Below, in pieces: positions 48,106 to 53,525 of a stretch of DNA of 64,000 nucleotides. Position 1 is the stretch's first letter. Every line of letters begins with the position of its first letter. The notes below the pieces were generated by a model. It searched no databases. It was given only the letters and a program-made list of their open reading frames with translations, and was not told where the DNA came from. Position numbers and translations under genes: made by a program. Origin of the DNA: Planctomycetota bacterium (lineage in GTDB: Bacteria; Planctomycetota; UBA1135; UBA2386); NCBI GenBank assembly GCA_016794425.1, contig JAEUHR010000058.1, positions 124,001 to 188,000 of the forward strand, in the 5' to 3' direction.

Positions 48106-48184
48106 GCGTCAGATGCTGCCGGCCGAAGCGGCGGCGGGGGCGGGGGGAAAGAAGACGCCCGGCGGGCAAGGCCCGCCGGGCGAC

Positions 48185-49428: not shown

Positions 49429-50535
49429 GTGGACTCGAGCCACGGCATGGCCGACGCTGTGCACGCGCTGCGCCACGATCCGACGATGCCACGCCCGCCG
49501 TTGTCCGCTGTCGAACCGCTGCTCCGTCGCACCGCTGGTGCCCGCGCCGTGGTCACCGGCGGCGCTGGCTTCGTCGGCTCGCACCTCGGCGAGGAACTCG
49601 TGCGGCGCGGCTGCTCGGTCCACATCGTCGACGACCTCTCGAGCGGGGACCGCGCCAACCTGGCGGCGCTGACGGGGTCGCCGCAGGTCCGCTGCACGTT
49701 CGCCTCGGTAGCCGATCCGATGGTGGCGCACGCGATCTGCGCGGACGCGGACGTGGTGTTCCACCTGGCCGGCACGGTCGGCGTGCAGCGGCTGGCGGCC
49801 GCGCCGCTCGAAGTCATGCAGCGCAACCTGCACTGCAGCGAGGCCATGCTGGCCGCCGCCGCCGCGCACGGCGTGCCGCTGCTGCTCGCATCGAGCTCCG
49901 AGGTCTACGGCGACGGACCGGTGCCGTTCCGCGAGCAGGATCCGGTGCGGCCCGGTGTGACCGAAGGACCGCGCGGCGGCTACGCCTGTGCGAAGGCGAT
50001 GGGCGAATGGCTGGCATTCGGCCACGCGGCGCGGACGGGCTGGCCGGTCGTCGTGGCGCGGCTGTTCAACACGGTCGGGCCGCGCCAGTCGGGGCGCCAT
50101 GGCATGGTGCTGCCGCGCTTCGTCGCCCAGGCGCTGCGCGGCGAACCGCTGACGGTCTATGGCAGCGGCGAGCAGACGCGCTGCTTCGCGCACGTGCGCG
50201 AGGTCGTGCGCGCACTGGTCGATCTCGCCGCGGCGCCGGGGGCGGCGGGCAGCGTGTTCAACGTCGGTTCCGAACTCGAGACGAGCGTCGCGGAGCTGGC
50301 AGCCATCGTGCGCGCCGCGGCCGGATGCGAGGCGCCGATCGTGCGTCTGCCGCTGGCGTCGGTGTTCCCGCCCGGCTTCGGCGACCCGCCGCGGCGTCGG
50401 CCGTGCCTCGATCGCCTGCGCCGCACGATCGGCTGGGTGCCGTCGATGCCGCTCCGCGAGATCGTCGCCGAATTGCTCGCGCTCGGCCGCGCCGGCGAGC
50501 GGTCGGTGGACTCGCTCAGGAACGTGGCGAACTGA
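49429..50535 (+). CDS. NAD-dependent sugar-nucleotide epimerase/dehydratase
   Basis: 368 residues of the extended short-chain dehydrogenase family. Cofactor motif GGAGFVG at 44-50, acidic D68/D69 after the second strand (NAD-type), SSSEVYG at 155-161 and the YxxxK pair Y185/K189. It would epimerise or dehydrate a UDP- or dTDP-sugar, substrate unknown. The start is uncertain among GTG 49429, ATG 49447 and ATG 49486; no clear Shine-Dalgarno exists at any. Its 3' end overlaps the convergent glycosyltransferase gene by 20 nt. Confidence 0.82.
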   Translation: MDSSHGMADAVHALRHDPTMPRPPLSAVEPLLRRTAGARAVVTGGAGFVGSHLGEELVRRGCSVHIVDDLSSGDRANLAALTGSPQVRCTFASVADPMVAHAICADADVVFHLAGTVGVQRLAAAPLEVMQRNLHCSEAMLAAAAAHGVPLLLASSSEVYGDGPVPFREQDPVRPGVTEGPRGGYACAKAMGEWLAFGHAARTGWPVVVARLFNTVGPRQSGRHGMVLPRFVAQALRGEPLTVYGSGEQTRCFAHVREVVRALVDLAAAPGAAGSVFNVGSELETSVAELAAIVRAAAGCEAPIVRLPLASVFPPGFGDPPRRRPCLDRLRRTIGWVPSMPLREIVAELLALGRAGERSVDSLRNVAN

Positions 50536-51904
50536 CCGCGCGCACCGCAGCGAGGTTGCGGTGGGCGGTTGCATCGTCGGGCAGCAATTCGACGGCGCGC
50601 GTGAAACACGCCTCGGCGCCGGCCGTGTCGCCGAGCCGATACCGGCAGATGCCGAGGTTCGTGTGTGCCAGTGCGAAGCCCGCGTCGGTGGCGGCGCGCA
50701 GCGCGAGTTCCGCTGCCTGCAGGTCGCCCGCCGCGAGTTCGGTGACGCCGAGCCAGTTCTGCAGCCGTCCGTCACCCGGCAACAGCTCGAGCGCGGCCAG
50801 GAAGTGGCGCCGCGCCCCGTCGTAGCGGGCGCCGTGGTAGTCGGCTTCGCCGAGTGCGTCGAGCAAGGCTGCCTGCTGGGGCGGTTCGAGGTGGAACTGC
50901 GTCGCCGTGGTGGCGGCCTGTCGTTCGCCGGCTGAGCGGTCGCCGGCAGCCAGCAGCGCCAGCGTCAGCGCCAGCGCCGCTTCGCTGTGGTGCGGGCAGC
51001 GTGACAGCAGGCGCTGCAGGCAGGTCGCCGCGCGGTGGGGTTCGCCGCAGTTGCTGTGCCAGCGCGCGAGATGCCAGTCGGCGTCGGGCCAGTTCGGCCA
51101 CGTGGCGCGCGCCTCGCGGGCGGCGGTGGCTGCGCCTTCGACGTCGCCATGCAGCGCGGCGATCGTCGCGCGGCCGGCCGGATCCCAACGCCACTTGGCG
51201 CAGAACTGCGCTCGGCGCCGCGTGATCTCGGCGCGCAGATCGAGTCCGAGCGCGCGGAACGTCGCGTGGCCCTCGTGGTGCAGGAAGGCGCGTCGGGCGA
51301 TCACGAGCCGCAGGCCGTGCAGCCGCAGCCGCAGGCTCAGGTCGTCGTCTTCGAAGTTGCCGTGCCCGAAACGTTCGTCGAACAGGCCTATGCGATCGAG
51401 CGTGCGCCGGTCCAGCAGCAGCGCGAGGCCGGCGAGCGTGTCGACGTCCTGCGCCGCCGTCGGCAGATCCGCCAGCGCGGCGGCAATGCTCTCGCGGCCG
51501 GCGGCGTCCTGACCCAGCGCGCCGACCGGGATGCGGGCCGGGCCCTTGACGTGGTTGCTGACCGGCGCGACGGCGCCGATCGACGGCGACGACAGCAGCA
51601 CGCGCTGCAGTTCCGCCAGCATGCCGGTCGCAGCCTGCGTGTCGTTGTTGAGGATCAGCACCAGGTCGCTCGCCGCGGCGCGAATGCCGACGTTGACGCC
51701 GGCCGCGAAGCCGAGATTGTGCGTCTGGCGCAGCACGCGGATGCGCGGGTCCAGCGACCCGAGCTGCGCGGTGCCGTCGCGGCTCGCGTTGTCGACCAGC
51801 AGGACTTCGCTCGGCGGTGACGGCACCTGCTGCAGCAGGCTCACGAGGCAGGCGCGCGTCAGTTCGGCGCCGTCATGGCAGGGGATCACCACCGAGCAGC
51901 GCAT
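50516..51904 (-). CDS. Glycosyltransferase family 2 fused to TPR repeats
   Basis: 462 residues. GT2 domain about 1-250: SVVIPCHDGAELT, VDNASRDG (37-44), the NND acidic motif at 86-88, and FGHGNFEDDDLSLRLRLHGL, as in rhamnosyl/WcaA-like transferases. Residues 255-455 hold four to five TPR units (for example AAELALRAATDAGFALAHTN and EACFTRAVELLPDDATAHRN). The TPR half may oligomerise or bind a partner. Preceded on the same strand by a 400-nt region ending in an intrinsic terminator 41 nt before the ATG, so expression may be attenuated. Confidence 0.82.
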   Translation of the reverse strand: MRCSVVIPCHDGAELTRACLVSLLQQVPSPPSEVLLVDNASRDGTAQLGSLDPRIRVLRQTHNLGFAAGVNVGIRAAASDLVLILNNDTQAATGMLAELQRVLLSSPSIGAVAPVSNHVKGPARIPVGALGQDAAGRESIAAALADLPTAAQDVDTLAGLALLLDRRTLDRIGLFDERFGHGNFEDDDLSLRLRLHGLRLVIARRAFLHHEGHATFRALGLDLRAEITRRRAQFCAKWRWDPAGRATIAALHGDVEGAATAAREARATWPNWPDADWHLARWHSNCGEPHRAATCLQRLLSRCPHHSEAALALTLALLAAGDRSAGERQAATTATQFHLEPPQQAALLDALGEADYHGARYDGARRHFLAALELLPGDGRLQNWLGVTELAAGDLQAAELALRAATDAGFALAHTNLGICRYRLGDTAGAEACFTRAVELLPDDATAHRNLAAVRAVSSPRS

Positions 51905-51944
51905 GGGTCCCCTGTCATCGGCCGTTCGCCGTCAGGCGGTGGCG

Positions 51945-51982
51945 AAAAAAAACCGCCCGACACCAGGGGGATGTCGGGCGGT
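51945..51982 (-). terminator. Intrinsic terminator before the GT2-TPR gene
   Basis: Minus-strand hairpin with an 11-bp stem: CCGCCCGACA (51953-51962) and TGTCGGGCGG (51972-51981) plus A52/T82, loop of 9 nt, followed on the minus strand by eight T (51952-51945). It ends 41 nt before the GT2-TPR start, so it ends a separate RNA or acts as an attenuator for that gene. Confidence 0.8.
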
Positions 51983-52330
51983 GGAATAGGGTCTTCGAAC
52001 CCTCATCCAGGGCTCGCCGTCACCGATCACTCACACTCGGAAACCTCACTCTCACCTCGTTAGGACGGCATGTCTCGCCAACGTGCCGCCACGTGATCGG
52101 TGCCGCCGAACCCAACGCCCAGACCGGTCTCGCCAACCGGCCTGCCAGCGTGAAGAACGTCGACCTCACAGCTCTCTGCTCCGCTGCTGACCGAGTGCGG
52201 CGCCGATGGGAGCGGCGCTGCGTCGCGGGCAATAGCGAATGCCATGGGGCCGGTAGCAAGTGGCATTCCAGCCGCTGCTGAATTTCCTGTAACAGCTGCA
52301 AACTGTTAATTGAAATAAGCTTACACTCAA
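51983..52330 (-). ncRNA. Candidate leader or small RNA upstream of the GT2-TPR gene
   Basis: About 350 nt between an AT-rich segment (52285-52345) and the terminator. No reading frame of merit. Repeated and paired elements: GAATGCCA/TGGCATTC (52237-52244 and 52261-52268), TAACAG/CTGTTA (52290-52295 and 52303-52308), direct repeats of an 11-mer (52072-52082 and 52127-52137) and an 8-mer (52083-52090 and 52100-52107). A T-loop-like GGTTCGAAG occurs near 51998, but the flanking bases do not form a tRNA or tmRNA arm. Not matched to a known family. Confidence 0.35.
52237..52268. repeat. 8-bp inverted repeat
   Basis: GAATGCCA (52237-52244) and TGGCATTC (52261-52268), perfect, 16-nt loop. Part of the candidate leader RNA. 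Confidence 0.6.
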
Positions 52331-52469
52331 TTACGCTTTTGCGTCTCGAGTTGGAATCCCGGAAATGGGAGGAAGTGGGCGGGAGTGGCGCTCCATGGGA
52401 CCGGCTGGGCGGCGCGTTCCGCGCCATCCGGCGGTCGGGCGGGCGCTTGGGCAGGCGCCGATCCACGCA

Positions 52470-52545
52470 AAGCACCAGTTACGGGAAGGCCGGTCAGGGG
52501 CGGCTGGCGGGGGTTGAGCGGCCCGGGGCAGCCCGTATGGTGCTT
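52470..52545. repeat. Two-part stem immediately before the pseudouridine synthase start
   Basis: AAGCACCA (52470-52477) pairs with TGGTGCTT (52538-52545) and ACGGG (52481-52485) with CCCGT (52532-52536). The right arm ends 5 nt before the TTG start at 52551, so the structure would affect translation initiation of that gene. Confidence 0.55.
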
Positions 52546-52550
52546 CCCCC

Positions 52551-53525
52551 TTGGTTGCACCCGCGGCGCAGTTGCTGATCGTGGACGAGCCGCTCGCGGG
52601 GATCCGGTTGTCGGACTTCCTCGAGCGCAGTTGCCCGGGCGTCAGCCGCGCCGACCTGCGGTGGCTGGTCGCCGACGGCCGCGTGCGGCTGAACGGCCTG
52701 CCAGCCGGCGCGCAGAAGCGTCTGCGCCCCGGTGACGTGGTGCAGGTCGAAGCCCATGTGGTCGCCGCGCGCCCACCGGCGCCACCGCCGCCGGCGCTGG
52801 TCGTGCTGCACGAGTCGGCCACCGAACTCGTGCTCGACAAGCCGGCCGGACTGGCGACCGTGCCGGACCGCAGCGGGCGCGATACCGGTGTGCACGGCCA
52901 GCTGGGTGCCCTGTGGCCCGAGCTCGACCTGCGCATCGTGCACCGCCTCGACCGCGACACCTCGGGTTGCCTCGTGCTCGCGATCGGCATCGACGCCGCG
53001 CGCCACTTCGATCGCCTGTTCCGCGATGGGGCCGTGCGCAAGACCTATGTCGCGCTGGTCGAAGGCGTGCCCGAGCAGGACGAGTTCTCGATCCACGCCT
53101 GGCTCGGTCCGGATCGGCGGCGGCCCGGCAAGGTCGTCGCGGCCGATGCACCGGGGCCGGGCCGGCGCGAGGCGCACACCGACGTCGTCGTTCGCCGCCG
53201 CTTCCGCCGCCACGCGCTGCTCGAACTGCGGCCGGCGACCGGTCGCAGCCACCAGCTGCGCGTGCATCTGGCTTCGGTCGGCCACCCGATCGTCCACGAC
53301 GAGGACTACGGCGGATCACCGCTGTTGCTCTCGGCGCTGAAGAACGACTACAAGCTGCGCCGGGGCGTTGCCGAACGTCCGCTGCTGCGGCGCATGTTCC
53401 TGCACGCGGAGCGGGTCGCGTTCGTGGCCCCGGACGGAGCCGACGTCGAAGTGGCTGCGCCGATGCCGGCCGACCTGGCGCAGGCCATCAAGAAACTCGA
53501 GAGCTTCGACGAGCGGCGGAGGTGA
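52551..53525 (+). CDS. RluA-family pseudouridine synthase
   Basis: 324 residues. N-terminal S4 RNA-binding domain about 10-70 (LSDFLERSCPGVSRADLRWLV), catalytic domain about 90-310 with HRLDRDTSG (131-139; D134 catalytic) and TGRSHQLRVHLASVGHPIV. Modifies uridines of rRNA or tRNA, site unknown. An in-frame stop at 52515 limits the start; there is no ATG or GTG after it until 52579, so TTG 52551 is taken. The stop is 4 nt before the truD start. Confidence 0.88.
   Translation: MVAPAAQLLIVDEPLAGIRLSDFLERSCPGVSRADLRWLVADGRVRLNGLPAGAQKRLRPGDVVQVEAHVVAARPPAPPPPALVVLHESATELVLDKPAGLATVPDRSGRDTGVHGQLGALWPELDLRIVHRLDRDTSGCLVLAIGIDAARHFDRLFRDGAVRKTYVALVEGVPEQDEFSIHAWLGPDRRRPGKVVAADAPGPGRREAHTDVVVRRRFRRHALLELRPATGRSHQLRVHLASVGHPIVHDEDYGGSPLLLSALKNDYKLRRGVAERPLLRRMFLHAERVAFVAPDGADVEVAAPMPADLAQAIKKLESFDERRR

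Follow-up and report, generated by a model that had tools for sequence, protein, structure and literature searches.

A candidate sigma-54-dependent structured small RNA beside a GT2-TPR glycosyltransferase gene in Planctomycetota

Comparable known RNAs and the locus

Qrr and CrcZ/CrcY are sigma-54-dependent small RNAs, terminated and stand-alone, that work with or on Hfq; CrcZ acts through repeated motifs. The candidate RNA described here resembles them as a probably terminated and stand-alone RNA whose dependence on sigma-54 is predicted, and its repeated loops recall the repeated motifs of CrcZ. It differs in its motifs and structure, in having no Rfam match, and in residing in a genome in which Hfq was not detected. 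GlmY of E. coli is a sigma-54-dependent decoy RNA that takes part in the control of cell-envelope precursors (PMC7073468). The present RNA would likewise be a structured intergenic small RNA with a sigma-54 promoter (here predicted), whereas it has no Rfam match, adopts another fold, belongs to an unrelated phylum and has no partner protein assigned to it. Candidate structured RNAs have also been obtained by comparative genomics, partly in planctomycetes, among them Rhodopirellula-1 (Weinberg et al. 2010; PMC2864571); the RNA motif reported here was derived in the same manner but is found only in one family. A survey of sigma-54 regulons that covers Planctomycetia leaves non-coding and small RNAs unmentioned (PMC12316311), and a search of one literature library for sigma-54-controlled small RNAs in Planctomycetota found no paper on the subject.

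The locus lies in a contig of a Planctomycetota bacterium, in a 64,000-nucleotide stretch that was analysed as a whole and is referred to as the window. An earlier note, made from the sequence alone, had drawn attention to a terminator-bearing leader ahead of a gene for a GT2-TPR glycosyltransferase and had offered three readings of it: a transcription attenuator, a riboswitch, or the 3' end of a small RNA. Of these, the third is best supported, and the region is probably the gene of a stand-alone, sigma-54-dependent, structured and terminated small RNA of ~300 nt that acts in trans. Its functional unit is best read as running from the promoter (from 52270) to the terminator (51945), inside the interval first singled out. 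The features of the locus are collected in Table 1.

Table 1. Features of the RNA locus and its flanking genes, in window coordinates.
Feature	Position	Strand	Basis or remark
Predicted sigma-54 promoter TGGAATG-CCAC-TTGCT (TGGAATGCCACTTGCT)	52255..52270	-	GG-N10-GC; 10/12 consensus positions
Expected transcription start	52244..52245	-	Inferred from usual -12 spacing
5' hairpin P0, CUCCCAU loop	52200..52218	-	Sequence
Conserved 5' box GCAGAGAGCUGUG	52167..52179	-	Sequence comparison of relatives
Hairpin P1, WGGCGAG loop at 52129-52135	52116..52150	-	Folds and covariation
Junction stem P2, 5' strand	52093..52113	-	Inverted repeat, fold, covariation
Hairpin P3, second WGGCGAG loop at 52074-52080	52064..52090	-	Fold; RNAalifold on model-free alignment
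P4 arm of three-way junction, variable	52030..52059	-	Comparison with relatives
Junction stem P2, 3' strand	52010..52030	-	Inverted repeat, fold, covariation
Hairpin P5, GGAU..GGG/CCC..AUUCC	51983..52008	-	Covariation and RNAalifold
Intrinsic terminator P6 and T-run	51945..51982	-	Terminator search, repeats, covariation
GT2-TPR glycosyltransferase gene, downstream; dispensable for RNA retention	50516..51904	-	ORF and synteny
Divergent RluA-family pseudouridine synthase; most constant neighbour	52551..53525	+	Synteny

Little has been reported on post-transcriptional regulation in Planctomycetota. An RNA family that covaries, sits at a fixed locus behind a recognisable switch and occurs where Hfq goes undetected would offer a handle on the regulatory RNAs and RNA-binding proteins of the phylum. 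The Rfam scan proposed in the earlier note placed no Rfam 15 family over the RNA at the gathering threshold, and relaxed thresholds gave only weak, sub-threshold chance matches of the terminator type. We class the RNA as a putative new family, its general kind being the 'sigma-54-dependent structured sRNA'. Here 'new' is relative to Rfam, and Rhodopirellula-1 carries no Rfam accession in the table of PMC2864571.

Terminator, fold and distribution of the RNA

The sequence elements on which the earlier note was built were confirmed. The GC-rich terminator stem occupies 51982-51952 (-) and is followed by eight T at 51952-51945, leaving 40 nt to the start codon of the GT2-TPR gene at 51904 on the same strand; it consists of 11 perfect pairs, or 13 when the inner pairs are counted. 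The 11-mer GTTGGCGAGAC is present twice (as GTCTCGCCAAC, at 52072 and at 52127), and the two arms of the 21-nt inverted repeat are 86% complementary. In the fold, the 11-mer accounts for the loops of hairpins P1 and P3 (WGGCGAG plus the pairs that close it), and the inverted repeat supplies P2.

The terminator is the sole site of its kind within 51000-53000, and shuffled sequences already give 0.6 +/- 0.8 per 2 kb, so that the bare match is unremarkable. Were this all, one might read the region as an ordinary terminator and a GC-rich spacer structured by chance, the more so as terminator stems like this one are found in other parts of the phylum. This reading is contradicted by covariation and by model matches in 17 genomes, which leave it highly implausible. 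The terminator stem itself is kept in 17/17 homologues; 99.5% of its cells are paired, and 9 of its 13 pairs show two-sided changes.

For 52310-51944 the predicted folding energy is -173.4 kcal/mol, compared with -149 +/- 5.4 in shuffles (z -4.5), and separate folds of eight leaders yielded one common architecture in most of them. Comparison shows a conserved predicted fold composed of the P1 hairpin, the P2 stem with a junction bearing P3 and P4, the P5 hairpin, and the terminator, P6. The covariation that the earlier note had asked for in relatives is present: two-sided changes were found in 30 of 43 pairs and 91.1% of cells are paired, figures obtained on an alignment that was fitted to the covariance model and hence leans towards the structure. 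The covariation score was 0.434; none of 500 shuffles was as good on any measure, and slid versions of the structure were 40-50% paired. On a MAFFT alignment made without the model, RNAalifold recovered P1, P3, P5 and P6, with two-sided changes in 21/30 pairs; P3 is absent from the covariance model, yet it emerged from this model-free alignment. RNAalifold additionally joined the U-run to the 5' GAGAG box, a pairing regarded as probably spurious. A CCC-containing hairpin occupies the place of P0 in several homologues by sequence comparison. A protein-coding reading was rejected on three grounds: there is no frame of consistent length, length differences are not in threes, and base-pair covariation is strong.

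Orthologues of the GT2-TPR protein are present in other Planctomycetota MAGs, and the same conserved words recur in 7 of 9 usable regions upstream of them: a sigma-54-like TGGCACR-N4-TTGC, GCAGAGAGCTGTG, two GGCGAG loops, GGAT..GGGG..CCCC..ATTCC, and the terminator. A covariance model (R1), built from 8 leaders, matched 17 of the 34 family genomes, each with a single copy (E values from 2.5e-56 to 1.4e-17), a count that rests on R1, since genomes without a match may hold diverged copies. Three more family genomes (L077, L079 and L080) indeed carry such copies beside the same genes; initially missed by R1, they retain the GGCGAG loops and the AGCGAGGTGTG motif in the P4 arm, and a refined model, R2, gave E 4e-14 for L077 and 5e-6 for L079. 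A simple BLAST search of 60 relatives with the leader as query returned fragments only, which makes the RNA family nearly invisible to sequence search alone.

Model searches outside the family, in the order (154 genomes) and in an even draw of the phylum (392 genomes), gave nothing convincing. The weak matches that did appear there (L057, L058, L088-L092) were rejected as terminator stems that lack the two-loop fold and lie mostly at unrelated gene ends. No convincing second copy was found in the window's genome by pattern and model search. A pattern search for the P4 motif returned one clear true match and apparent chance sites, and a phage collection contained no match to the RNA.

In deeper relatives (L077, L079, L080; L036, L044, L046), the P4 arm carries another strongly conserved motif, AGCGAGGUGUGCAWG...UGCAGGYGAGAGCU (GAGCGAGGUGUGCAWG), which is largely lost in the window's lineage. 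Elsewhere in the window, a terminator-like stem at 48156-48182 (-), directly 3' of a tRNA gene (48260-48188, -), matches the terminator part of R2.

The predicted sigma-54 promoter

A GG-N10-GC element precedes the RNA in 17/17 copies, agreeing with TGGCACGNNNNTTGCW at 9-12 of 12 positions and lying 72-134 nt 5' of the GCAGAGAGC box. At least 10 of the 12 positions are matched within 200 nt in 14 of the 17 copies, as opposed to 2% of dinucleotide-shuffled upstream regions. The RNA is, by this comparison, preceded at a near-constant distance by a predicted sigma-54-type -24/-12 promoter. Given the usual spacing between the -12 element and the start at sigma-54 promoters, the promoter at 52270-52255 puts the expected start near 52244 and implies a transcript of ~300 nt, from about 52244 to 51945. 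The window's genome has two RpoN genes, recognised by the Sigma54_DBD domain (L086 and L087, on contigs C58 and C56 of G000).

Separability from the GT2-TPR gene and possible mode of action

The GT2-TPR gene follows the RNA in 14 of the 17 copies. In most genomes the terminator lies close before this gene, in common synteny and in the manner of a leader, and this counts against a stand-alone RNA. The alternative is a cis-acting attenuator or riboswitch, in which the sigma-54 promoter would drive a leader and a ligand, a protein or a translation event would set read-through into the GT2-TPR gene. Position, strand, the strong terminator 40 nt ahead of the start codon, the structured leader and the frequent synteny all fit such a device. 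However, no antiterminator pairing was seen in the minimum-free-energy folds or consensus folds of the leader RNA, and no Rfam riboswitch matched.

The two elements also come apart. In genus g7, the GT2-TPR gene is missing or reduced to a stub in three genomes in which the neighbours and the RNA stay: L043 (1411-1500) has no remnant of it before the convergent epimerase gene, L041 (1781-1975) has ~16 codons left, and in L038 (1730-1941) its first codons are fused to the last TPR. The sigma-54-type site (11-12 of 12) persists in all three, as do the two loops and the terminator; together with a sister that bears the glycosyltransferase gene, these genomes display 17 base pairs with two-sided changes. 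Since the RluA tree nests g7 among lineages that bear the GT2-TPR gene, a secondary loss of the gene, with the RNA kept, is probable. The opposite case is found in five family genomes (L061, L070, L074, L075 and L076), where the gene is present and the RNA could not be recognised. RNA and GT2-TPR gene are therefore separable both ways, each occurring without the other, and the RluA gene is the steadier neighbour. This separability argues against an obligatory cis attenuator, although regulated read-through may occur where both are present. The attenuator and riboswitch readings of the earlier note are for these reasons unlikely.

A dual-function RNA would combine both roles: it would be terminated and act in trans as a small RNA, and where gene and RNA occur together some read-through, under regulation, would feed the GT2 gene. 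It would suit the 14 genomes that retain RNA and gene together, and one genome without the RNA (G022; L070) has a sigma-54-type site ~215 nt before the GT2-TPR gene, a hint that the gene may at times be served by this promoter, and one that weighs against the stand-alone reading. Against it stands a TGCCGATnnCA-type element (TGCCGATnnCAnGG; 51906-51923, -) that nearly all orthologues carry immediately ahead of the GT2-TPR start, both in genomes with the RNA and in those without it, and that suggests an expression signal of the gene's own, possibly a promoter, a hairpin or a translation signal. We consider the dual-function reading quite improbable.

The preferred reading is thus a stand-alone RNA that probably regulates by itself and is more than a leader of the GT2-TPR gene, because it is kept after loss of that gene; its survival without the gene is also the reason to propose action in trans. 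An enhancer-binding protein together with RpoN would switch on transcription at ~52244, and RNA polymerase would be halted by the terminator (51945). Once released, the RNA would act in trans, either by pairing with mRNAs or by binding a protein via its repeated purine-rich loops. The paired WGGCGAG loops, as the most constant exposed elements, are the likeliest contacts for protein or mRNA. No match to PF17209 (Hfq) was found with Pfam in the window's genome, which is 93% complete; a diverged Hfq might have escaped this search. The negative result counts against the preferred reading, and we do not assume a partner of the Hfq type. By analogy with CrcZ and GlmY, the RNA might, though this is rather unlikely, sequester an RNA-binding protein through the paired WGGCGAG loops displayed on the three-way junction; it would then be a new sigma-54-controlled class in planctomycetes and an Hfq-independent counterpart of these decoys that possibly controls surface polysaccharide synthesis.

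On the other side of the locus, a sigma-70-like promoter, TTGagc-N17-TATggT, is located at 52514-52541 (+) of the window, directly before the RluA-family gene, and relatives have a similar sequence there.
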